A stretch of 64,000 bases of DNA from positions 1-64,000 of the IMG/VR virus record IMGVR_UViG_3300032224_000970; one strand, 5' to 3'. Made by a program: the position numbers and the translations under genes. The stretch comes from a virus. Of the stretch, positions 1 to 20,397 are shown in pieces. Every line of letters begins with the position of its first letter. Positions within the stretch are counted from its first letter, which is position 1. The notes under the pieces are model-generated. The model saw nothing but the letters and a program-made list of their open reading frames with translations, was not told where the DNA came from and made no database searches.

Positions 1-147
1 AATCTTGTAGTTGATGCCATGAGTATGCAGTATTTTGACAACGCTACTATAGATTTTACTAGTGATAAATTAAAAGGATCTCAATTTGTTATATCAAACC
101 CAAATGCCAAATCAACTTGTGGATGTGGAAGTAGTTTCTCAGTCTAA
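1..147 (+). CDS. A-type iron-sulfur cluster carrier (HesB/IscA family), C-terminal fragment
   Basis: The reading frame enters at base 1 and stops with TAA at 145-147, giving the last 48 residues of a protein. It ends in [16 protein letters not shown]. The C-G-C-G-x-S-F ending is the diagnostic C-terminal signature of A-type Fe-S carriers (IscA, SufA, ErpA, HesB), where the two cysteines help hold the cluster. The usual family length is about 105-120 residues, so less than half is visible, and the first conserved cysteine lies outside the window. The stop is followed one base later by the exonuclease start, suggesting co-transcription. Family assignment is firm from the motif. The role in infection, for example supplying clusters to phage or host enzymes, is inference. 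Confidence 0.85.
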
Positions 148-148
148 A

Positions 149-802
149 GTGAAAACATTTATACATCATGATATCCCCAAACTTGAACGTATCACCTCTC
201 CCGATGGATCAAGATTATACAACACACCATCGGGTAGAGCCTATCCCAGCGTTACAACAGTTACAGGATCACAATCAAAAGAGGGAATCCTTGCATGGCG
301 AAAAAGAGTTGGAGCCGAAGAAGCAAATAGAATCACAACCAGAGCAGCAAACCGAGGAACAAGAATCCACTCTCTCTGCGAAGCATATCTCCGCAATGAG
401 AGATGTGAACCTGATATCTTCGATAAAGAGATATTTGGAAGTATATCACCCTTCCTCGAAAGAATAGATAATATACATGCGTTGGAGACACCACTGTATT
501 CTGACCATCTTGAAGTTGCAGGAACTGTTGATTGTGTTGCAGAGTTTGAAGGTAAGATGTCCGTAATTGATTTTAAGACATCTGCAAAAATTAAAACACG
601 AGACAATATTCATGGGTACTTTATGCAGTGCTCTGCATATGCAGTTGCCTTTGAAGAAAGAACAGGAATTCCTATTGGTCGTTTAGTTGTTATAATGGGT
701 GTTGATAACGAAGATCCTTTATTGTTCATCGAGAAGAGAGATACTTGGATCGGTGAGTTTCGTAAACTGAGATTAGAATATAAAAATATGAAAGGTGTAT
801 AA
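149..802 (+). CDS. PD-(D/E)XK exonuclease (RecB/Cas4-like)
   Basis: This is a probable DNA exonuclease of the RecB/Cas4-like PD-(D/E)XK superfamily, of the type T4-like aquatic phages carry among their replication and recombination genes. Counting from the GTG at 149, His74 lies in RGTRIHSLCE, the first metal-binding Asp128 in GTVD, and Asp141-x-Lys143 in VIDFKTS. A later Gln in the MQCSAYA segment fits the QxxxY motif of RecB-type nucleases. The GTG start one base after the preceding stop gives an N-terminus VKTF..DIPKLER and is my preferred start. In-frame TTG at 86 and ATG at 104 would overlap the Fe-S gene. The product is 217 residues. The next gene starts immediately after the stop. Substrate polarity cannot be read from the sequence. 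Confidence 0.85.
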   Translation: MKTFIHHDIPKLERITSPDGSRLYNTPSGRAYPSVTTVTGSQSKEGILAWRKRVGAEEANRITTRAANRGTRIHSLCEAYLRNERCEPDIFDKEIFGSISPFLERIDNIHALETPLYSDHLEVAGTVDCVAEFEGKMSVIDFKTSAKIKTRDNIHGYFMQCSAYAVAFEERTGIPIGRLVVIMGVDNEDPLLFIEKRDTWIGEFRKLRLEYKNMKGV

Positions 803-1123
803 ATGATTCCAATGTTTGACTATGGATCTATCAATGAAGATCATAAAGCTGCAGCAGAAGAATGCGCTAAACTGATTGAATCGCATGTTCCACAAATAGC
901 TGAACAAATTCGTGAGAGATTCAAAATTGTGGAGCCAGTAAGAATGGATCCTGAGACTAGCGAATTCTATAGAACTGCAAGAGAGTTTGGGTTATTTCCA
1001 GCGCAACAGGGTTATATGGTTGGACCAGATGGAGTGCAAATTCCACTTGTTAATGTTTGTGCAGAACTACCGAAGTTTGACCAATTTTTACAACATTATA
1101 AAAATTTGATCTGCAACGAATAA
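803..1123 (+). CDS. hypothetical protein, 106 aa
   Basis: I do not recognise a family. The protein is soluble and mixed alpha/beta in composition, with no signal peptide or membrane segment. It has an amphipathic N-terminal helix-like stretch (about residues 10-45) rich in Glu, Lys and Ala, then a Gly/Pro-containing segment (GYMVGPDGVQIPLV) and a C-terminal helix. The ATG directly abuts the exonuclease stop, so translation is probably coupled and a DNA-metabolism role is possible. Only this context supports a function. It is followed by a promoter-like region and the tmRNA. Confidence 0.75.
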   Translation: MIPMFDYGSINEDHKAAAEECAKLIESHVPQIAEQIRERFKIVEPVRMDPETSEFYRTAREFGLFPAQQGYMVGPDGVQIPLVNVCAELPKFDQFLQHYKNLICNE

Positions 1124-1134
1124 ATAGGTATAAT
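1106..1134 (+). promoter_or_regulatory. sigma70-type promoter before the tmRNA
   Basis: TTGATC at 1106-1111 and a perfect TATAAT at 1129-1134 are separated by exactly 17 bases, placing transcription start near 1141, just before the tmRNA acceptor piece. An AATAAATA late-type motif overlaps at 1119-1126. The -35 box lies inside the end of the upstream gene. Read from sequence only. Confidence 0.6.
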
Positions 1135-1320
1135 TATGTTTAAGTGATATTGCTGTATGAAGCAAAGAGAAAAGTGTTCTGGACGGGAGTTCGATTCTCC
1201 CCACCTCCACCAAAAGTATAATCGATATGCACATAGCATATAGAGACATAAGAAACGTGATTATGCTTCTGATGGGGGTGACTAGGTTTCGACAGGGCAA
1301 AGAGTAACAGAGTGGACAGC

Positions 1321-1338
1321 ACGGTAGGCGATGACCGT
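1321..1338 (+). other. candidate tmRNA pseudoknot 1 stem
   Basis: ACGGT (1321-1325) and ACCGT (1334-1338) form a 5-bp stem upstream of the tag, where tmRNAs carry PK1. The second PK1 stem is not clear to me (only GAT/ATC is evident), so this is a partial assignment. Confidence 0.45.
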
Positions 1339-1359
1339 AAATCAAGCAAAAACGTAAAT

Positions 1360-1404
1360 GCAAACGATAGCGCATATTATCAGGATCTACGCCTAGCAGC
1401 GTAA
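1360..1404 (+). other. tmRNA tag-peptide reading frame
   Basis: From the GCA resume codon at 1360 the frame reads ANDSAYYQDLRLAA and stops with TAA at 1402-1404. AND at the start and LAA-type hydrophobic residues at the end match bacterial proteolysis tags; the E. coli tag is ANDENYALAA. At 14 residues it is longer than the 10-residue E. coli tag. ClpXP-type proteases normally read the C-terminal LAA. Confidence 0.88.
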
Positions 1405-1406
1405 AC

Positions 1407-1450
1407 TGATTGGGGTTTCGTCAGCTGTCCTTATTAACCAATCAGCTGAC
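1407..1450 (+). other. H-type pseudoknot downstream of the tag stop
   Basis: TGATTGG (1407-1413) pairs with CCAATCA (1438-1444). GTCAGCTG (1420-1427) pairs with CAGCTGAC (1443-1450). The stems are interleaved in pseudoknot order and share bases 1443-1444. Three bases after the tag stop is where tmRNAs carry PK2. The second stem is followed by ATTTTTAATTTTAT and could also act as an intrinsic terminator for the tmRNA. Confidence 0.6.
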
Positions 1451-1477
1451 ATTTTTAATTTTATAAAGGTATTGAAT

Positions 1478-1933
1478 ATGAAAAAGGGAATTTTAATTGT
1501 AGCACTTATGGCAGCATTTGGTGCCAACGCTGCTGATCTAAAGACTGAGATTGGTGTTACTGGTAGTCGTGACACTGCTGGTTCAGATCGTTCTGGCTAT
1601 GGTATTACTATCGGACAGAAGTATGACAAAATTGGTTTAACTGCTGGTTTTGATCGTTACACTTCTGGTACTGATCTTAATAAATATAGTGTAGTTGGTT
1701 CTTATGATGTAGCAAACATTGGCAAAGCAACTATTGCAGTTAAAGCTGGTTTTGCTTACTTAGATCAAAAGGGTTCTACTGATGGGTATGCTGGTTTGAT
1801 GGGTGCTGGTGTTTCTATGCCAATCAACTCTAATCTAGCAGCAACTATTGATTATCGTTATCAGGCAGGTCAGAGTCGTGTTAGTTCTTTAGATGGCAGT
1901 ACTATTTCTGCTGGTCTTAAGTACTCGTTCTAA
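1478..1933 (+). CDS. outer-membrane beta-barrel protein
   Basis: This is a 151-residue exported protein. Residues 1-19 form a classic Sec signal peptide (Lys-Lys, hydrophobic core, cleavage around ANA-AD). The rest is made of alternating hydrophobic/polar strands with aromatic ends and Gly-rich turns (GVTGSR, GYGITIGQKYDKIGL, AAVKAGFAYL-like segments). It ends in KYSF; a terminal Phe is the outer-membrane beta-signal recognised by the BAM machinery. The size fits a small barrel like OmpX/OmpA-type or phage Lom proteins. The start is ATG 1478 with AAAGG eight bases upstream; an upstream TTG at 1472 is less likely. The gene follows the tmRNA directly and may share its transcript. Altering the host surface, for example superinfection exclusion, is inference. 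Confidence 0.8.
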   Translation: MKKGILIVALMAAFGANAADLKTEIGVTGSRDTAGSDRSGYGITIGQKYDKIGLTAGFDRYTSGTDLNKYSVVGSYDVANIGKATIAVKAGFAYLDQKGSTDGYAGLMGAGVSMPINSNLAATIDYRYQAGQSRVSSLDGSTISAGLKYSF

Positions 1934-2554: not shown

Positions 2555-3157
2555 ATGCGAGTATATTTAAAAATACTTTTAATTATAACTGCAATGATTG
2601 TGATGACTGGTGTGGCTACTGCATTGCACACACATGAATTAAAACTACTTGATGTTAAATACAACCAATTAACAAAAGAAGCAAAAAGTCAAGTAGATTG
2701 CCTTGCTGAAAACATTTATCACGAAGCAGGGTATGAACCAGAAGAAGGAAAAATCGCAGTTGCGATGGTGACCTTAAATAGATTGAATGACCCAAGATAC
2801 CCAAAAGACATTTGCTCTGTAGTCAAACAAAAGACACATAGCACTTGTCAGTTCTCTTGGTTCTGCATGCCTGTTCATTTAAACAAAGAGAACAAAGTTT
2901 ATGAACAGGCAATGGATGTTGCTTTACATGTTTATGTAAACTATGAAAAGATGACTGATGTAACACTGGGTGCTCTATATTATCATGCTGACTATGTTAA
3001 TCCAAGATGGAAGTTAATAAAGACGACCACGATCGGACGACATATTTTTTATAAAGAAGGTGTAAAATTTAATGATGACAAAACTAAATCTGCAGTTGAA
3101 AGAAGAAAGCAACTCGAAGCACTCGTTCTTCCTACTGATGGAGGAGATAACACTTAA
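2555..3157 (+). CDS. SleB/CwlJ-type cell-wall hydrolase (Hydrolase_2)
   Basis: This is a probable peptidoglycan hydrolase of 200 residues. Residues 5-24 form one hydrophobic segment (signal anchor or signal peptide). The SleB-like domain follows from about residue 45: CLAENIYHEAGYEPEEGKIAVA matches the family core A-x-x-I-x-x-E-A..G..GxxAVAxVxLNR, with Glu57 as the likely catalytic acid. NRLNDPRYPKDICSVV and the CQFSWFC motif are also typical. An AAGGAG site precedes the ATG. A hydrolase carrying its own export signal fits a SAR-like endolysin or a periplasmic lysis enzyme. A holin-like gene lies on the other strand at 11738-12202. The 3' end overlaps the ClpP-like gene by 86 bases. Confidence 0.85.
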   Translation: MRVYLKILLIITAMIVMTGVATALHTHELKLLDVKYNQLTKEAKSQVDCLAENIYHEAGYEPEEGKIAVAMVTLNRLNDPRYPKDICSVVKQKTHSTCQFSWFCMPVHLNKENKVYEQAMDVALHVYVNYEKMTDVTLGALYYHADYVNPRWKLIKTTTIGRHIFYKEGVKFNDDKTKSAVERRKQLEALVLPTDGGDNT

Positions 3158-3632
3158 CAGTGCTAAACAGGCTGTTGAGTGGATAATGGAAGCAAACTTT
3201 TCTGAGGAACCACCTCAACTAATGAATCTAATCATTACATCTCCAGGTGGTGACTTAAATGCTGCATTTGCTTTAGTTGATACGATGAGAGGATCATCGA
3301 TACCAATTAGAACTGTTGGGCTAGGACAGATTGCTTCCGCTGGTCTTATGATCTTTATTAGTGGTACACATGGTCATCGTATTCTTACACCGAATACTTC
3401 GATTCTGTCTCACCAATATTCATGGGGTGTGTTCGGTAAAGAGCATGAACTTATTGCACAGGTTAAAGAGTTTGACCTTACAACTAAACGAATGATTGCG
3501 CACTATAAAAAGTGTACTGGATTGAATGATACTAAAATTCGAGAAGTACTACTTCCACCGCAAGATGTTTGGCTTAGTGCACTAGAAGCAAAAAAGTTAG
3601 GTATATGCGACGATGTTAAAGATCTTAAGTAA
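3072..3632 (+). CDS. ClpP-like serine protease
   Basis: This is a 186-residue ClpP/crotonase-fold protease. The catalytic triad is visible: Ser89 in GLGQIASAGLM (ClpP GQAAS.G), His114 in SILSHQ (ClpP MIHQP) and Asp165 in QDVWLSALEAKKLGICDD (ClpP ERDRFLSAxEAxxYGLVD). The SPGG turn at residues 57-60 is also conserved. The N-terminus is short and lacks the long propeptide of host ClpP. ATG 3072 has AAGG about ten bases upstream and retains the first beta-strand (HSFFLL), so I choose it although it overlaps the hydrolase gene. A start at 3138 would remove that strand. Known phage relatives act as head maturation proteases or host-like ClpP; no prohead gene is adjacent here, so its substrate is open. 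Confidence 0.82.
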   Translation: MMTKLNLQLKEESNSKHSFFLLMEEITLNSAKQAVEWIMEANFSEEPPQLMNLIITSPGGDLNAAFALVDTMRGSSIPIRTVGLGQIASAGLMIFISGTHGHRILTPNTSILSHQYSWGVFGKEHELIAQVKEFDLTTKRMIAHYKKCTGLNDTKIREVLLPPQDVWLSALEAKKLGICDDVKDLK

Positions 3633-5280: not shown

Positions 5281-5455
5281 TTTTCGGTTTACATTTGTAG
5301 CGATCATAGTATTTTTATTAGTACTTGGTGGTTTACTTGAATTTATTCCACGCCATGGCAGAATAGTATATGATTGTAGGATGGCAGAGATCTCGCCAGA
5401 CTTCCCTGTTGAAGTACGTAATGAATGTAGGAAGCGTTATAGTGGACGGATTTAA
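5273..5455 (+). CDS. small membrane-anchored hypothetical protein
   Basis: This is a 60-residue protein with one strongly hydrophobic helix at residues 6-25 (FTFVAIIVFLLVLGGLLEFI) followed by a 35-residue polar tail with two cysteines (YDCRMAEISPDFPVEVRNECRKR). It overlaps the gp33-like gene by eight bases and the gp59 gene by 35 bases. The tail resembles a recurrent short phage protein of unknown function. Topology suggests N-in with an exported tail, or a signal anchor; a disulfide is possible if exported. Confidence 0.65.
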   Translation: MSNFRFTFVAIIVFLLVLGGLLEFIPRHGRIVYDCRMAEISPDFPVEVRNECRKRYSGRI

Positions 5456-6056
5456 AGCATACAAATATTATATTGCAATCAAATTACATTTCACAAAGGA
5501 TTCATTCGATGTTTTCACAAATCGGGGCAGTGTTAAAGGAACACGTGAAGCGTTCAATGCACGTAATGATAGATATATCTTCGAAAAGCTGGCACGTAAA
5601 TTCCCAGTTGATCGAGATATCATACAATATTATGTATCAAACTTTGCATATGGAAACGAAAGCGTTGTCTACGATCTTGCAGAAGCTGAAGAAAACTACG
5701 CAGAGTGGAACAAGCGTAAACAGTCTATAACAAAAATCTTTGCAGATGACCTCAGCAAGATTTTGATGGATGCTTACAAACGCAAGATTAAAGAATCATC
5801 AATAATAAACTTTACTTTAAATCAATATCCGAGTATACTTAACCTATATCTTGGAAAACAAATTGGGATTGAAACCCTTAGGATCATAGATGACTTCGAG
5901 AATTTACTTGGTACGTGGAAACAACACAGTTCTATGTTATTACTGTGGGAAAACGAGATACGTAAAGTTGAGAAAATTAGAGGATTTGTTAATTACGATA
6001 AAGACAAAGTCTTAACAGTGTTTAATCAATTTAAAGAAGAGATCAAAGAGTTGTGA
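5421..6056 (+). CDS. 59: DNA helicase loader, gp59-like
   Basis: gp59 loads the replicative helicase gp41 onto gp32-covered forked DNA. The alignment with T4 gp59 is visible by eye: VDGFKAYKYYIAIKLHF corresponds to T4 IDGKSVYKLYLMIKQHM, then KxRxDRYxFEKLARKF and YYVSNF match the HMG-like N-domain. A helical C-domain follows (WENEIRKVEKIR, corresponding to the T4 WNNYSIKLKAYRKI region). The length with ATG 5421 is 211 residues against 217 in T4. Further upstream in-frame codons would overlap the membrane-protein gene more and have no T4 counterpart. It lies two genes before gp32, its partner. Confidence 0.85.
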   Translation: MNVGSVIVDGFKAYKYYIAIKLHFTKDSFDVFTNRGSVKGTREAFNARNDRYIFEKLARKFPVDRDIIQYYVSNFAYGNESVVYDLAEAEENYAEWNKRKQSITKIFADDLSKILMDAYKRKIKESSIINFTLNQYPSILNLYLGKQIGIETLRIIDDFENLLGTWKQHSSMLLLWENEIRKVEKIRGFVNYDKDKVLTVFNQFKEEIKEL

Positions 6057-6295: not shown

Positions 6296-7216
6296 ATGGA
6301 TATTCAAACACTCCGCAAAATGCGCAATCAAGACTTCGGAAAAATCTCTGGAGAATTCGAAAAGATTGCTAATCCCCAATCCGAATCAAAGTCTTTCAAT
6401 GACGATCGCTTCTGGCGTCTTGAAGGAGATAAAGCAGGTAACGGAACTGCTACGATTCGATTCCTCCCACGTGTTGAAGGCGACGAACTCCCATGGGTTC
6501 GAATCTTCTCTCATGGTTTCCAAGGTCCAACTGGTAAGTGGTATATCGAGAATAGTTTGACTACTCTTGGTGAGAACGATCCTGTTGGTGAGTTGAATAC
6601 TCAACTATGGAACAGTGGTTCTGAAGCCAATAAAGAAATTGCACGTAAACAAAAGCGTAAGCTGAGTTTCACTGCTAATGTCTATATCGTTTCTGATCCA
6701 AAGCATCCTGAGAACGAAGGGAAAGTGTTCCTCTTCAAATTTGGTAAGAAAATCTTTGACAAGATTATGGACAAAGCACGTCCTACCTATGAAGATGAAA
6801 AGCCAGTCAACGTATTTGATCTTTGGGAAGGCGCAAACTTCAAACTACGTATGCGTAAGAAAGATGGATACACCAATTATGATGAATCCACTTTTATGGA
6901 ACCAGCACCTGTCTCTGAAGATGAGAATGAGTTGCTGAACATCGTTAACTCACAACATAAACTTGCAGAATTTCTTGATCGTAAGAACTTCAAGTCTTAT
7001 GATGAGTTGAAGAAGAAACTCGAGCAAGTCCTTTCAGGAGATAGTTTTGTAGCGAAGTCTGCTGCAGAAATTGCTGAGGAAGATCGTCCTGTTGCAGCAG
7101 CACCTAAAATGGCTTCTGCTCCCGCACCTGCTCCTAAAGTAAGCAAGTCAGCACCTTCACTTAATGAAGATGATGACGTAATGGGTTACTTTGAGAGAAT
7201 TGCGAAGGAAGACTAA
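6296..7216 (+). CDS. 32: single-stranded DNA-binding protein gp32
   Basis: This 306-residue protein (T4 gp32 has 301) covers single-stranded DNA in replication and recombination. Domain order is preserved: a basic N-terminal cooperativity segment (LRKMRNQDFGK), the OB-fold core from TIRFLPRVEG through KWYIENSLTTLG, KRKLSFTANVYIVSDPKHPENEGKV with the FGKKIFDKI signature, then an Ala/Pro linker and an acidic C-tail (NEDDDVMGYFERIAKED) for partner binding. The zinc ligands of T4 (three Cys in CSSTHGDYDSCPVC) are absent; the protein has no cysteine at all, as in cyanophage relatives. An AAAGG site precedes the ATG and a terminator follows the stop. Confidence 0.95.
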   Translation: MDIQTLRKMRNQDFGKISGEFEKIANPQSESKSFNDDRFWRLEGDKAGNGTATIRFLPRVEGDELPWVRIFSHGFQGPTGKWYIENSLTTLGENDPVGELNTQLWNSGSEANKEIARKQKRKLSFTANVYIVSDPKHPENEGKVFLFKFGKKIFDKIMDKARPTYEDEKPVNVFDLWEGANFKLRMRKKDGYTNYDESTFMEPAPVSEDENELLNIVNSQHKLAEFLDRKNFKSYDELKKKLEQVLSGDSFVAKSAAEIAEEDRPVAAAPKMASAPAPAPKVSKSAPSLNEDDDVMGYFERIAKED

Positions 7217-7710: not shown

Positions 7711-7725
7711 GATCCCCATTTTTTT
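7697..7725. terminator. intergenic terminator between convergent genes
   Basis: A 10-bp stem, 7697-7706 with 7711-7720, closes a GTAA (GNRA-type) loop and is followed by TTTTT on the plus strand. The loop contains the stop codon of the plus-strand gene, and the minus-strand tape-measure gene stops at 7724. The T tract is best for plus-strand transcripts; minus-strand use is less certain. Confidence 0.8.
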
Positions 7726-10378
7726 ATGCCTGAACACCATACCTACTATCGAGATATCGATTAACAGATGGTTCAGGATTGCGTATCGGCATGCGATACT
7801 CGAGACTTTGTGTAGATTTATTAATACTTGTTGGTGCGTTAACGATACTAGTAGTACCACCACCGCCACTAGAAGCCATTTCTCTTTGTGTATCTTGATT
7901 CTCTGCAGACTGTCTTCCGATCATTACAGTTTGTTGACCAGTTTCAACTTTCATTACACCACCAGATGCAGCAAATACACTTGCCTTCTGCCATGGGAAT
8001 GCGTCAACAGCTTTGATTGTTTCAGGTTTTATATTTGAGAATGCAGCGATACCATCAGAAATACTCTTGATACCAACACCTGCCTTTTCAAGACCAACTC
8101 CATATTGAGAAATTTGTTCCATCTGCTCAACTGGAGATTTTTGTCCACTAACTGCAGTTAAGAATCCACCAACCAAACTTCCAAGACCAGCTACTGCCTG
8201 AGCAGCACCGAATGCTGCCATACCTGCACCAACAGCAACAAGACCAGCACCTACCTTAACAAGATTATCACCATCGATCTTCGATAGTTTATCCATTGCT
8301 GCAGCGAATGCATCAAATGCAGGTGCAGCTATTTCCATTGCTGCAGCGAAAGGAATCAATGCTAAACTAATTGCAGAGATACCTACTGCACCAAGAAGTA
8401 GAAGTGGAGATAGAACACCAGCAAGAGCACCAACTCCAACCATTGCTCCTATAGCAGTAATTCCGCTAGATACTGATTCCCAATCTAAATCTTTCATAGA
8501 TTGGAAACCTTCGCCTACTGACATTAAACCCAAACCTAATGCTGCTAGTCCAGCACCTGCAAGAATCATCACTGGTGCTAATAAACCGATTGCACCAGCC
8601 ACAACTCCAAGAACACCTATCGTTACTGCTGCTTGTGCTATGGTTTCCCACTTTAAGTCAGCCATTGCTTGAAGACCAGTTCCTATTGACATCAGACCAA
8701 CACCAAGTGCAGTTAGTCCAACTGCAGCTAGTAACATTACTGGAGCCAATAAACCAATTCCAGCTGAAACTACACCTAATGCGCCAATAGTAACAGCAGC
8801 CTGAGCAATGGTTTCCCACTTTAAGTCAGCCATTGCTTGAAGACCAGTTCCTACTGAGATTAAACCTAAACCTAATGCTGCTAAACCTACGCCAGCCAGA
8901 ATCATTACTGGGGCTAGTAAACCTATTCCTGCAGCAACGACACCTAGTGCACCAATAGTAACAGCAGCCTGAGCAATGGTTTCCCATTTCAAGTCAGCCA
9001 TCGTTTCTAAACCAGTTCCTATTGACATCAGACCAACACCAAGTGCAGTTAGTCCAACTGCAGCCAGAATCATTACTGGTGCTAGTAAACCTATTCCTGC
9101 AGCAACGACACCTAGTGCACCAATACTAACTACTGCTTGAGCAATTGTTTCCCACTTAAGATCTGCCATTACATTCAGACCAGTGCCCACAGATATAAGT
9201 CCAACACCAAGAGCAGTTAGTCCTACGCCAGCAATTAGCATTAATGGAGCAACAGTACCTAATCCTGCAGCGATAACTCCAAGAGCACCAATAGCAACAG
9301 CTGCCTTAGCGATAGTGGCTAGATCTAAATCTGCCATAGTTTTTAAACCAAGACCAACAGATATAAGTCCAACACCTAATGCGGTAAGTCCTACACTTGC
9401 TATTAACATTAGTGGCGCAACTAATCCTAGACCAGCTGCTATAACACCAAGTGCTGCGATTGATACACCTGCTTTAGCGATTGTTTCCCAGTCTAGTTCT
9501 GCGAAATTCTTTAGCCCTGTGCTGGCTGAAAGTAAACCAACTCCAAGAGCAAGGATACCAACTGAGCCAAGTATCAACGCTGGTGCAACAGTGCCTAGTA
9601 GAGCAGCCACCGCACCTAGTGCTACTAGCGATACGATTGCTTTACCGATACTTTCCCATTCAACATCTGCGAATGTAGTTAATGCTTCAGCTGTTAACCA
9701 AAGAGCACCACCCATTACAAGTAGTGACGCTGCGCCAGCTAACATTGCTGGACCAGCACTACCAAGTGCAATCGCAGCAACAACTAAACCAGCAAGAACA
9801 ACACCACCCTTTAGTATCGCTTCCCATTCAATCTCACCAAACTTCTCTAATGCAACTGCAGTAATTAAAAGAGCAGCACCAAGTGCGAGTAGTGTTTTAT
9901 GCGCACCACTTTCTTCAATAAACTTGGTAGCAATAACTAAACCACCCATAACGATAAGACCTTTGGCTAAATCAGTCCAAGAAACATCTGCAAATTCTTG
10001 CATTGCTTTTGAAGTGATCCATAGTGCAGCAGCAAGTCCTAGTAAACCTTTAGCAGTATCGCCAAGTGCTTTAATACCACCTGACAATCCACTTAGTATT
10101 CCACCGCCACCACCTCCACTACTAGTAGCTTCGTTCGCTGGTCTAACAGCCTCAGGACGTTTACCACCACCTCCAGTATTATCTGCAATAATACCAAGAA
10201 GTCTGGTTTGTTCATCCATCCTCCTATTCATCTCTTCTTGATTTTCATCGGTAGTAGTACCAGACGCTGATGCTTCTTTCTCCATCAGTTCTCGAATTGT
10301 CTGAATGTGTTCTACCGATGCTTTTTGAAGATCCAAAAGTTTCTGGAAATTACTTGGAGATGCTGTTATGATTGCCAT
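7724..10378 (-). CDS. tail tape measure protein with 56-residue repeats
   Basis: This 884-residue protein is the likely length ruler inside the tail tube. Residues 1-75 are charged and coiled-coil like (Glu/Gln/Arg-rich), followed by a Gly-rich linker. From about residue 105 there are roughly ten tandem hydrophobic modules with a 56-residue period, each with the core M-A-D-L-K-W-E-T-I-A-Q-A then an Ala/Gly/Leu helix hairpin (GALGVVAAGIGLLAP). The C-terminus is polar. The position, directly after the gp26-type chaperone and its small partner, matches gp29 in T4 and tape measures generally. Sequence identity to T4 gp29 is not visible to me; the assignment rests on architecture and context. Membrane-active hydrophobic helices suit DNA passage through the inner membrane. 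Confidence 0.8.
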   Translation of the reverse strand: MAIITASPSNFQKLLDLQKASVEHIQTIRELMEKEASASGTTTDENQEEMNRRMDEQTRLLGIIADNTGGGGKRPEAVRPANEATSSGGGGGGILSGLSGGIKALGDTAKGLLGLAAALWITSKAMQEFADVSWTDLAKGLIVMGGLVIATKFIEESGAHKTLLALGAALLITAVALEKFGEIEWEAILKGGVVLAGLVVAAIALGSAGPAMLAGAASLLVMGGALWLTAEALTTFADVEWESIGKAIVSLVALGAVAALLGTVAPALILGSVGILALGVGLLSASTGLKNFAELDWETIAKAGVSIAALGVIAAGLGLVAPLMLIASVGLTALGVGLISVGLGLKTMADLDLATIAKAAVAIGALGVIAAGLGTVAPLMLIAGVGLTALGVGLISVGTGLNVMADLKWETIAQAVVSIGALGVVAAGIGLLAPVMILAAVGLTALGVGLMSIGTGLETMADLKWETIAQAAVTIGALGVVAAGIGLLAPVMILAGVGLAALGLGLISVGTGLQAMADLKWETIAQAAVTIGALGVVSAGIGLLAPVMLLAAVGLTALGVGLMSIGTGLQAMADLKWETIAQAAVTIGVLGVVAGAIGLLAPVMILAGAGLAALGLGLMSVGEGFQSMKDLDWESVSSGITAIGAMVGVGALAGVLSPLLLLGAVGISAISLALIPFAAAMEIAAPAFDAFAAAMDKLSKIDGDNLVKVGAGLVAVGAGMAAFGAAQAVAGLGSLVGGFLTAVSGQKSPVEQMEQISQYGVGLEKAGVGIKSISDGIAAFSNIKPETIKAVDAFPWQKASVFAASGGVMKVETGQQTVMIGRQSAENQDTQREMASSGGGGTTSIVNAPTSINKSTQSLEYRMPIRNPEPSVNRYLDSRYGVQA
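8140..10060 (-). repeat. 168-bp tandem repeats in the tape-measure gene
   Basis: The coding sequence repeats with a 168-base period (for example the GTTTCCCA word on the plus strand at 8643 and 8811). Four central copies are nearly identical, and outer copies are progressively diverged (FADVSW, FGEIEW, FADVEW, FAELDW, MADLDL, four MADLKW, MKDLDW). Boundaries are approximate. Confidence 0.85.
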
Positions 10379-17081: not shown

Positions 17082-19912
17082 TAGGTGTTGGATATTATAC
17101 TGGTGTAGTTGAGGATAGAGACGATCCACTAAGACTTGGTCGTTGTCGTGTACGTGTAGTTGGTTTACATACAGAAAATAAAACTGTTCTTCCAACTGAA
17201 GACTTACCATGGGCATACCCACTTCAACCAGTAACTTCAGCAGCAATGAATGGTATTGGATGGACACCTACTGGTCCAGTTCTTGGTACATGGGTTGTTA
17301 TTATCTTCAGAGATGCTGAGCAACAAGAACCAATTATGCTGGGAACTTTTGGTGGTATCCCGCAAACTAAATCTGCGCAGCACATTAATGATGAGAATGC
17401 AGATGTTATTGCAACTGATAGTGGTGTTTTAACAGATTCAAGCGGAGAAGCTGTAAAGACAGCTGATGGTATCCCTGTAACTGTTGGTAGTGTTGAAGCT
17501 GGTAATAATTCACCTGATGCAGAACCAGCTGGTGGAGAACCAGCACTTACTGAACAGAAAACTCCAAATGCTGCATCTGATTCCGCACTCAAAACAGATA
17601 TTCCTACTACACCTCCACCAAATTCTACACCAAACCCAACACAGGCTAAACAAAACATTCAGTATCTTTTAGACGCATGTGAAAAAGTTGGATTAACTAG
17701 CAAATACGCCAAGTGCGCAGTTCTCGCTATCGCTGGTGGAGAAACTGGCTGGCAACCAATCGGTGAATATACATATTATACTGCAAGTACTTTGATGAGA
17801 ATTTTTGGAAGAACATTTCCTCCAGGAAGTGAAGCAGAAGCTGCAGCATACGCTAAGTGGGATTACAAAATTAAAGGAAGAGAAGACTTTTTCCGTAAAA
17901 TTTATTCTCCAAGTGGTAATGGTTCTTTCGTTGGAAATACTCAACCAGATGATGGTGCAAAATATTACGGACGAGGTTTTAATCAATTAACAGGTAGAGC
18001 TGGATATCTACAGGCACAGAATTTTTTAAAGAGCAAGGGTATTGCGATTGATCTTATGAACAATCCTGATTCTGTTTTAACAGATCCCAAAGTAGCTGCT
18101 CTTGCTTGTGCTGCATTCTATATCTTGAATGTCAAACATAATCAAAATGATCCAGGATATTTTATTGCTGCAAGAAAACGAACAGGTGCAGATGCTGGCA
18201 CTGGATATGCGAAGAAGCAGACATACTATGAGTATTTCCTTGGTGCTTCTGTTTCTTCCAGTCCTACGAACAAACCACCTGCCGATGAAAACAAAACATA
18301 TACTAAAGAAGAAGTTGCAGATCTTCCACCATCAAAACAACAGGCACTGTTAGAATCAAGAACAGAAAATGCTACTGTTGGTTTCTGCGACCCAAATGGA
18401 AAATATCCATTACGTAACCTAATGGATGAGCCAGATACCAATCGTCTCGCACGTGGTGTTATTAAAGAAACTGCTATTGAGTATAAAGACTCTGTGAGAA
18501 CTAAACAGATTCCATTGGCAAATACAACTGAAGTATGGGAGCAACCAATTGCTCCATTCGGTGGTAAGTATCCTTACGTCAAAGTTTATGAAACTGAGTC
18601 AGGACATCTACAAGTATTTGACGATACACCTACGCATGAAACAATCAGTCTGTATCATAAGGCTGGAACATTTATTGATGTTGATGCGAATGGAACACAG
18701 GTTAATAAAATTGTAGGGGATGGTTATTATATTATCGATAAGAATGGTTCTATTCATATCGGTGGCGCAGCGAAAGTAACAGTCGGTAACTCTGTAAACA
18801 TTTTAGTGCAAGGACGTGCTGATGTTCAAATTCAAGGACCAACAACTATCAATGTAAATAACAGTGTTGATCTTGGTGTAGCAGGTGACTTTAATGTTGC
18901 TGTTGGTGGTGACTATAATGTAAAGGTTGCTGGAAGTTACAATGTTTCTGCGGATGGTGATGTTAACCAAACTTCACAGGGAAATACTATTATTCAATCA
19001 AGCGGAGATTTGGGTATCATCTCTAGTGGCGATTCAAAGTTCTTTGCAGGTGGCACTCATAATATTAAAGCAAGTGGTAATGTTAATGTTGATGGTTCAG
19101 AGTTCCATGGTCAGGAAGGATCTGCTTCTTCACCAGAAGGTGTTGAGCCAGTTGATTTAACTCCACCAGAGAATATCGGTTTTGTTACAGATCAATTTGG
19201 TGTTCTACAAACACCTGTTCGTCCATCGCCACCTATTGATGTTAAGTTTGCAATTAATGAAGAGAACATTGCACAGACAGAAGATTATATTGCAAACCCA
19301 GATAAATATAATAACCCAACTGCAGCTGATAATGGTGTTAAACAGAATTATGCTGGAACACCAAAATCTGATGGACAAGGTAAATCATTAAAATCTGATG
19401 CTGCTCCAAGTGACATCTATGAATTCTTGAGAAAACAACTTGAATTGACTTCTCAGACTGATTACTGGAGAGAAACTGGACAGAATGGTAATAAGAGCAA
19501 TCCAAACATTACCCGTATTTGGGCAGACTTAGGATACCCAACATCTTCTCCATGGAACACTGACCAAACTGCATGGTGTATGGGATTTGTAAATTATACA
19601 TTGAAACAATGTGGTTATCGTTATGTTCAGGAAGCAGGTTCTCGAGCAATCGCAGCAAATCCATCTAGGTGGAATGCAACTAAAGTTACTGTTGCAGATG
19701 CTCAGCCAGGAGATATTGTTCTTTGGGATTTTGGTCACGTAAACTTTGTTTATACTGCTGAGAGTGGAAAGCTGTCGTTCGTTGGAGGTAATCAGTCTCC
19801 AAAGAATAAGGGTAATAATCCAAATGATGGAGATGTAACTCAATCATGGCCATCTGGATGGACATCGGCACGTGGTGGTATTGTTGGAATCTTTAGACCG
19901 AGCAAGACATGA
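17078..19912 (+). CDS. 5: multidomain baseplate spike gp5 with two lytic domains
   Basis: This 944-residue protein is the cell-puncturing spike. Residues 1-100 form the gp5 OB domain (GVVEDRDDPLRLGRCRVRV, LGTWVVIIF, IMLGTFGG). About 190-400 is a lysozyme/chitinase-like muramidase (GH19-type): Glu222 in IAGGETGW and the motif YYGRGFNQLTGRAGY near 295. About 470-670 includes the gp5 C-terminal segment and a triple-stranded beta-helix of V-x-G-x(n) repeats (VGNSVNILVQGRADVQIQG). Residues 778-944 are a CHAP/NlpC-P60-like peptidase with Cys834 in TAWCMGF and His887 in FGHVNFV. T4 gp5 has only one lysozyme and 575 residues, so this one combines a glycan-cutting and a peptide-cutting domain. ATGA overlap with the hub gene. 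Confidence 0.87.
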   Translation: MIGVGYYTGVVEDRDDPLRLGRCRVRVVGLHTENKTVLPTEDLPWAYPLQPVTSAAMNGIGWTPTGPVLGTWVVIIFRDAEQQEPIMLGTFGGIPQTKSAQHINDENADVIATDSGVLTDSSGEAVKTADGIPVTVGSVEAGNNSPDAEPAGGEPALTEQKTPNAASDSALKTDIPTTPPPNSTPNPTQAKQNIQYLLDACEKVGLTSKYAKCAVLAIAGGETGWQPIGEYTYYTASTLMRIFGRTFPPGSEAEAAAYAKWDYKIKGREDFFRKIYSPSGNGSFVGNTQPDDGAKYYGRGFNQLTGRAGYLQAQNFLKSKGIAIDLMNNPDSVLTDPKVAALACAAFYILNVKHNQNDPGYFIAARKRTGADAGTGYAKKQTYYEYFLGASVSSSPTNKPPADENKTYTKEEVADLPPSKQQALLESRTENATVGFCDPNGKYPLRNLMDEPDTNRLARGVIKETAIEYKDSVRTKQIPLANTTEVWEQPIAPFGGKYPYVKVYETESGHLQVFDDTPTHETISLYHKAGTFIDVDANGTQVNKIVGDGYYIIDKNGSIHIGGAAKVTVGNSVNILVQGRADVQIQGPTTINVNNSVDLGVAGDFNVAVGGDYNVKVAGSYNVSADGDVNQTSQGNTIIQSSGDLGIISSGDSKFFAGGTHNIKASGNVNVDGSEFHGQEGSASSPEGVEPVDLTPPENIGFVTDQFGVLQTPVRPSPPIDVKFAINEENIAQTEDYIANPDKYNNPTAADNGVKQNYAGTPKSDGQGKSLKSDAAPSDIYEFLRKQLELTSQTDYWRETGQNGNKSNPNITRIWADLGYPTSSPWNTDQTAWCMGFVNYTLKQCGYRYVQEAGSRAIAANPSRWNATKVTVADAQPGDIVLWDFGHVNFVYTAESGKLSFVGGNQSPKNKGNNPNDGDVTQSWPSGWTSARGGIVGIFRPSKT

Positions 19913-20397
19913 GTTGGGCACCATCTACAACAGAACTTGGACCACATGCTGAATTTGAAACTTTCAGTCATACAATAACGTATGAGGTTATAGATCCAAT
20001 ACTTGGAACTACTTCTTATAGTGTAAGAATACTTCCTCAGGAAACATTACCAGCTACAGTTAATATAACTGGAGCAACACTTTCTGGTTATTTTAAACAT
20101 GTGTTCAATGATACTTTGAAATATAGAACAGCGTATCAGCAAACTAAAACTGTTGTAACTGATTCTGATAATGGCGCATGGGATAAGTTGAATACCGATG
20201 ATGTTTATGAGTTTACATCATTTAAAGCAGATACATCGAGAAGTAGGGTTTATAATTATGTTGCGGAAGCATACGACCCACTGGTTCCTGGAACTGTGGT
20301 TGCTTCACAAAATTACACGCTAAATGTTCGAGACCTAAATTGGACTCCAGGACTTTTAGCCTTAAAAGAAATAGTAACTTTAACACAGAGTAGATAA
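19909..20397 (+). CDS. hypothetical virion protein, 162 aa
   Basis: This gene sits between spike gp5 and the PAAR tip, overlapping both by a few bases. The protein is soluble and beta-rich, with alternating Thr/Val strands (HTITYEVIDPILGTTSYSVRIL, VNITGATLSGYF) and a later DVYEFTSFKADTSRSRVYNY; it looks like an Ig-like or fibronectin-type domain pair. I do not recognise the family. Position suggests a component or chaperone of the central spike. No cysteine or signal peptide is present. Confidence 0.75.
   Translation: MSWAPSTTELGPHAEFETFSHTITYEVIDPILGTTSYSVRILPQETLPATVNITGATLSGYFKHVFNDTLKYRTAYQQTKTVVTDSDNGAWDKLNTDDVYEFTSFKADTSRSRVYNYVAEAYDPLVPGTVVASQNYTLNVRDLNWTPGLLALKEIVTLTQSR

Follow-up and report, generated by a model that had tools for sequence, protein, structure and literature searches.

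A beta-type two-piece tmRNA gene at a conserved position in uncultured T4-like phages

The window analysed here is a stretch of 64,000 nucleotides (positions 1 to 64,000 of IMG/VR virus record IMGVR_UViG_3300032224_000970), and on its forward strand, at 1145-1450, lies an intact, circularly permuted tmRNA gene of the rare two-piece form. With a probability of about 0.9 this phage gene encodes a functional tmRNA of the beta type, used for ribosome rescue and peptide tagging that depend on the SmpB of the host. Existing knowledge is extended by the finding that uncultured T4-like phages commonly carry the beta-type gene, at one conserved position. The initial annotation had presented the gene as a new kind of finding; a 2022 paper had already described phage two-piece tmRNAs, namely that of the Methylophilales phage Melnitz and 53 calls of the two-piece form in isolate phages (PMC9004378). 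What is new here is that the phage family is large, old and distinct in sequence, and that its neighbourhood is open to test.

The record as a whole (159,683 bp, ~159.7 kb) is that of a T4-like phage, as the initial annotation had it, and contains gp32, gp59, a tape measure protein and the gp17 terminase as markers. The terminase shares ~50% identity with its counterparts in T4-like cyanophages, Melnitz and Mosig. The tape-measure-like protein of the tail (window 7724-10378) has many similar internal repeats. A cluster of 26 tRNA genes, serving all 20 amino acids, is located at record 139244-147082, outside the window, and lies ~14 kb from the tmRNA gene if the record is circular.

The tmRNA gene is recognized by two independent programs. 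ARAGORN places a permuted tmRNA at 1120-1495, and the Rfam search with permuted models that the initial annotation had proposed as a check returns both tmRNA_permuted (RF04321; 141.3 bits, E 9.8e-28, cut-off 47 bits) and beta_tmRNA (RF01850; 100.3 bits, E 2.6e-29, cut-off 84 bits), the latter being top of its clan at the overlap. The signal is far beyond chance. The earlier reading of the locus as a permuted two-piece tmRNA is thereby borne out, and its coordinates for both pieces, the spacer and the tag frame are all exact on the sequence. The features are itemized in Table 1.

Table 1. Features of the tmRNA gene and its neighbourhood, in window coordinates
Feature	Position	Strand	Basis or remark
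PD-(D/E)XK exonuclease (phrog_298)	86..802	+	Upstream of tmRNA in most relatives
Sigma70-like promoter: TTGATC (1106-1111), 17-nt spacer, TATAAT (1129-1134)	1106..1134	+	10/12 consensus matches
3' (acceptor) piece	1145..1212	+	Sequence, ARAGORN, Rfam, fold, covariation
P2 strand within 3' piece	1175-1181	+	
T stem-loop within 3' piece	1185-1201	+	
Acceptor strand CACCTCC	1202-1208	+	
Discriminator A	1209	+	
Encoded CCA	1210-1212	+	
Intervening transcribed spacer, 61 nt	1213..1273	+	Excision expected from known permuted tmRNAs
5' piece and mRNA-like part	1274..1404	+	Sequence, ARAGORN, Rfam, fold, covariation
Acceptor strand GGGGGTG	1274-1280	+	
P2 strand within 5' piece	1293-1299	+	
Tag reading frame ANDSAYYQDLRLAA, then TAA (1402-1404)	1360..1404	+	ARAGORN
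Terminator-like 8-bp hairpin GTCAGCTG...CAGCTGAC, then T-rich tail ATTTTTAAT	1420..1460	+	Long-loop search
Small outer-membrane beta-barrel-like protein	1472..1933	+	Weak Pfam matches
Cell wall hydrolase (endolysin-like)	2555..3157	+	Partner gene of ClpP-like gene
ClpP-like protease	3072..3632	+	CLP_protease 101.7 bits; PDB ClpP E 7e-17; triad Ser/His/Asp kept
T4 gp59-like helicase loader	5370..6056	+	Clade marker
T4 gp32-like single-strand DNA-binding protein	6296..7216	+	Clade marker

The order of the gene is that of the permuted layout, with the 3' piece ahead of the 5' piece; the CCA ends at 1212 and G1 follows at 1274. The 5' piece begins with the acceptor strand and continues through a D-like region with TTTCGAC into its strand of P2, after which come a hairpin and pseudoknot region and the tag frame. 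The acceptor stem of 7 bp (1274-1280 with 1202-1208) is formed solely between the two pieces, by the pairs G1-C72, G2-C71, G3-U70, G4-C69, G5-C68, U6-A67 and G7-C66. The alanine identity pair G3-U70 is provided by G1276 and U1206, so that the earlier claim of a helix re-formed only between the pieces, with this pair preserved, holds. When 1145-1460 is folded without constraints, both the acceptor stem and the T arm reappear (z = -3.1 relative to dinucleotide-shuffled sequences), and the spacer forms a hairpin that stacks against the acceptor stem (-19.3 kcal/mol, z -2.8). The long helix upstream of P2 contains several non-standard pairs in its lower part in the window gene.

The tag frame is intact. 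It comprises 14 codons, and the resume codon, the stop and a hydrophobic/alanine degron end are all present. Among the viral relatives the tags called by ARAGORN are mostly ANDxx(F/Y)ALAA, with a minority of 13-15 codons (for example ANDSAYYQDLRLAA, ANDNVYSEDLRLAA and ANDAFYNEDLRLAA); the AND...LAA ends are common to nearly all of them, though the tags vary. This bears on the suggestion, made for mycobacteriophage DS6A, that the tRNA-like part of a phage tmRNA serves as a decoy or inhibitor, either by titrating the SmpB of the host or by blocking the host's trans-translation. The DS6A tmRNA consists of the tRNA-like domain only and has no tag frame, in contrast to the window gene. A phage tmRNA with little beyond this domain does exist, similar molecules inhibit tmRNA (PMC4131195), and the window phage encodes no SmpB of its own. 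However, a decoy would not need a tag, and the frame with its stop and LAA end is intact both here and in most relatives, which argues against a pure decoy and makes this role very unlikely.

The gene has candidate signals for its own transcription. Exact TATAAT is found upstream of 60 of the 125 distinct phage tmRNA genes, compared with a mean of 17 and a maximum of 29 in shuffled sequences; most of the matches lie 51-65 nt ahead of the T loop, with a peak of TTGACA-like boxes near -80. The terminator-like hairpin is absent from the list of a stricter scan because its loop is 15 nt, and is seen with a long-loop search; similar hairpins are present in 41/125 relatives. With the promoter before it and the hairpin after the tag, the gene looks like an independent transcription unit of the early type.

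From the sequence we infer expression, processing, charging, rescue and the proteolysis of tagged peptides, as follows. A precursor would be transcribed from the gene's own host-type (early) promoter as far as the terminator hairpin that follows the tag. The 61-nt spacer would then be excised by tRNA-processing enzymes of the host, with RNase P generating the 5' end at G1274 and 3' processing at CCA1212, and the two mature RNAs would be held together by the acceptor stem and the P2 helix. The CCA end would be charged by the host alanyl-tRNA synthetase through the G3-U70 pair, and host SmpB and EF-Tu would bring the tmRNA to ribosomes that have stalled on broken messages, for example on transcripts cut by phage and host nucleases during infection. 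The ribosome would be freed, and the peptide would gain the tag, with an LAA end expected to target the peptide to proteolysis of the ClpXP type. Rescue on transcripts broken in infection, with tagging for proteolysis, would be the simplest role, and the ribosome rescue proposed in the initial annotation is the one that we judge most likely. The authors of the Melnitz study proposed the upkeep of hijacked machinery or the degradation of host proteins (PMC9004378).

SmpB is found neither in the window phage nor in 33 other phage records (Melnitz included), so SmpB, AlaRS and EF-Tu of the host must serve. The phage tmRNA would work only if accepted by host SmpB. Having no encoded SmpB, the phage does not carry a self-contained trans-translation system; the membership of the RNA in its family is unaffected.

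A set of 84 distinct phage genes was examined for selection on the structure. In P2, the helix that joins the pieces, each position is paired in 94-100% of the genes, whereas shuffled partners, in a calculation that ignores relatedness, give ~70-80% at variable positions. There are compensatory changes at several P2 pairs, including pair 6 (GC 60, AT 15, CG 6) and pair 7 (TA 60, CG 10, AT 6), with ~0.7 expected from shuffling. The T stem covaries too, the few variants of the acceptor stem are compensated (GGGGATG/CATCTCC, GGGGGCG/CGCCTCC and GGGCCTG/CAGGTCC), and G3-U70 is kept in 82/84 genes, all within a sample picked in part by exact DNA patterns that fix some letters of the acceptor and T arm; P2 is for this reason the cleaner evidence. 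Selection on the helix between the pieces is evident from this comparison of sequences, as are the intactness of the gene, its structure and a conserved promoter.

The gene also recurs at one place. The DNA pattern of the 5' piece, GGGGGTGANNNGGTTTCGACAGGGCAA, occurs in 112 viral contig stretches and that from the other piece in at least 120, and in most of the stretches so matched ARAGORN calls a permuted tmRNA. A second sample was started from gp32, without selection for tmRNA; of the 26 retrieved loci that extend 7.5 kb or more upstream, 17 have a permuted tmRNA at the same place. This place, between the exonuclease and the cell wall hydrolase, is kept through a diverse T4-like clade, while the outer-membrane beta-barrel-like gene that adjoins the 3' side of the tmRNA is there in only part of the relatives. 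Integrating elements often use the ssrA gene as their site, and pieces of it are present in prophages (PMC9004378), from which it might be supposed that the window gene is a non-functional remnant of a host ssrA, left by imprecise excision of an integrating element. The gene is complete, with promoter and terminator, its sequence signature is phage-specific, and the covariation and the conserved position extend across the T4-like clade. A remnant is already contradicted by the evidence of selection and is extremely unlikely.

The initial annotation had suggested capture from a host with a permuted gene and a comparison with candidate host tmRNAs. No match to the 5'-piece signature GGGGGTGANNNGGTTTCGACAGGGCAA is found in 84,980 bacterial species genomes; a looser signature has matches in Rhodocyclales, Cupriavidus, Herbaspirillum and others. 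In a tree of 159-167 sequences, built on only 135 columns and so of limited support, as few as 3 changes account for the phage and bacterial labels; the genes from phages are diverse and for the most part lie apart from the bacterial permuted tmRNAs, and the exact place of the window gene is not settled by the tree. Two Burkholderiales with small genomes and a permuted tmRNA (GGGGCGT/CGCCTCC, tag ANDESYALAA) lie near phage sequences in it. Recent capture from a sequenced host was rejected as the main story, given the virus-only signature and the 3 label changes, and host capture in general is not favoured. Since the phage set is largely separate and its signature is missing from bacterial genomes, the comparison is better read as pointing to a gene that has long been resident in phages.

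An attempt to name the host from the tmRNA fails. Strong permuted tmRNAs are scarce in Burkholderiales (>120 bits in only 17 of 399 sampled genomes), and the type does not track the host. Melnitz has an alpha-type tmRNA and a host that is not alphaproteobacterial, and BUCT-ZZ01, a phage recorded on Synechococcus, has a beta-type one, so that tmRNA type is a poor guide to host.

Several known systems resemble the window gene. Melnitz (MZ577097) and pelagimyophages such as Mosig are, like the window phage, T4-like and aquatic with a complete permuted tmRNA, and Melnitz likewise has no SmpB that could be found. The Melnitz tmRNA differs in being alpha-type (RF01849, 106.7 bits) and is followed by a glutamine riboswitch, whereas the window gene has a different tag and different neighbours; the window gives no Rfam match to such a riboswitch. 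The betaproteobacterial permuted tmRNA (RF01850; Rhodocyclales, Cupriavidus, Herbaspirillum) shares the layout of acceptor stem, P2 and TTTCGAC. The bacterial genes mostly have CACCTCCACCCA, with no exact CCA after the discriminator, whereas the phage genes encode CCA; the median spacer is 27 nt in the bacterial genes and 81 nt in the phages, and the bacterial tags are ANDE(R/Q)FA(L/I/V)AA while those of the phages are varied. BUCT-ZZ01 (ON615601, Kyanoviridae) carries its permuted tmRNA (94.5 bits) at 116952-117248, with the tag ANDETFSMALAA. A permuted tmRNA with the tag ANDDNFRPALRLAA is present in Xanthomonas phage Rb1 (PQ569993, 16268-16696), where there is no annotated feature. Achromobacter phage JWDelta (KF787094, about 19705-20390) matches tmRNA_permuted with 95.8 bits; the tag called by ARAGORN is abnormal, and was perhaps lost or mispredicted.

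The ClpP-like gene lies ~1.6 kb downstream of the tmRNA and overlaps the gene of the cell wall hydrolase, a gene pair that is conserved in the T4-like clade. The PDB matches of its product are bona fide ClpP, and sequence and triad together place it in the ClpP family. This neighbour suggests an extension of the functional tmRNA, compatible with it, whereby tmRNA and protease cooperate and phage-tagged peptides go to a phage-modified ClpXP. Among the 95 tmRNA loci whose downstream flank reaches 4.5 kb or more, 77 have ClpP on that side and in the orientation of the tmRNA (median distance 1.8 kb), and conversely the tmRNA is upstream of 33/36 close ClpP relatives with enough upstream sequence. 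With the exception of a single gap at Asp, the Ser/His/Asp triad is conserved throughout 84 distinct ClpP sequences, and the tags have diverged from those of the sampled bacteria with a permuted tmRNA. However, nine tmRNA loci have the hydrolase and lack ClpP, ClpP is present in 4/9 gp32 loci without a tmRNA, and a tree-aware test of the link has only 2-5 independent contrasts. The ClpP of BUCT-ZZ01, the closest to that of the window in the isolate phage collection (52%), has no tmRNA nearby, the two genes being ~41 kb apart. Moreover, the whole record gives no match to a Clp/Hsp100-type AAA_2 unfoldase, the cognate partner that ClpXP would call for, and no SspB adaptor was found in it; the T4-like phage pf16 has an SspB analogue and no tmRNA (PMC5587285). 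Literature searches on phage tmRNA and Clp protease gave no paper describing both as a unit. The pairing thus suggests that tagging and proteolysis are coupled but is confounded by shared ancestry, and a joint module, though possible, is doubtful.

Still more would be claimed by regarding this widespread uncultured T4-like clade as the owner of a private quality-control module, in which the diverged two-piece tmRNA and the ClpP-like protease redirect rescue and the fate of tagged peptides. We consider this distinctly doubtful; if true, such a module could for example recycle amino acids or spare phage proteins during infection. The two-piece tmRNA is a regular and selected gene of phages, found across a large uncultured T4-like group and distinguished there by a sequence type and tags of its own. 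Its recurrent ClpP neighbour leads to an idea that can be tested directly: phages may steer both ribosome rescue and the breakdown of tagged peptides, a question asked ever since phage tmRNAs came to notice.
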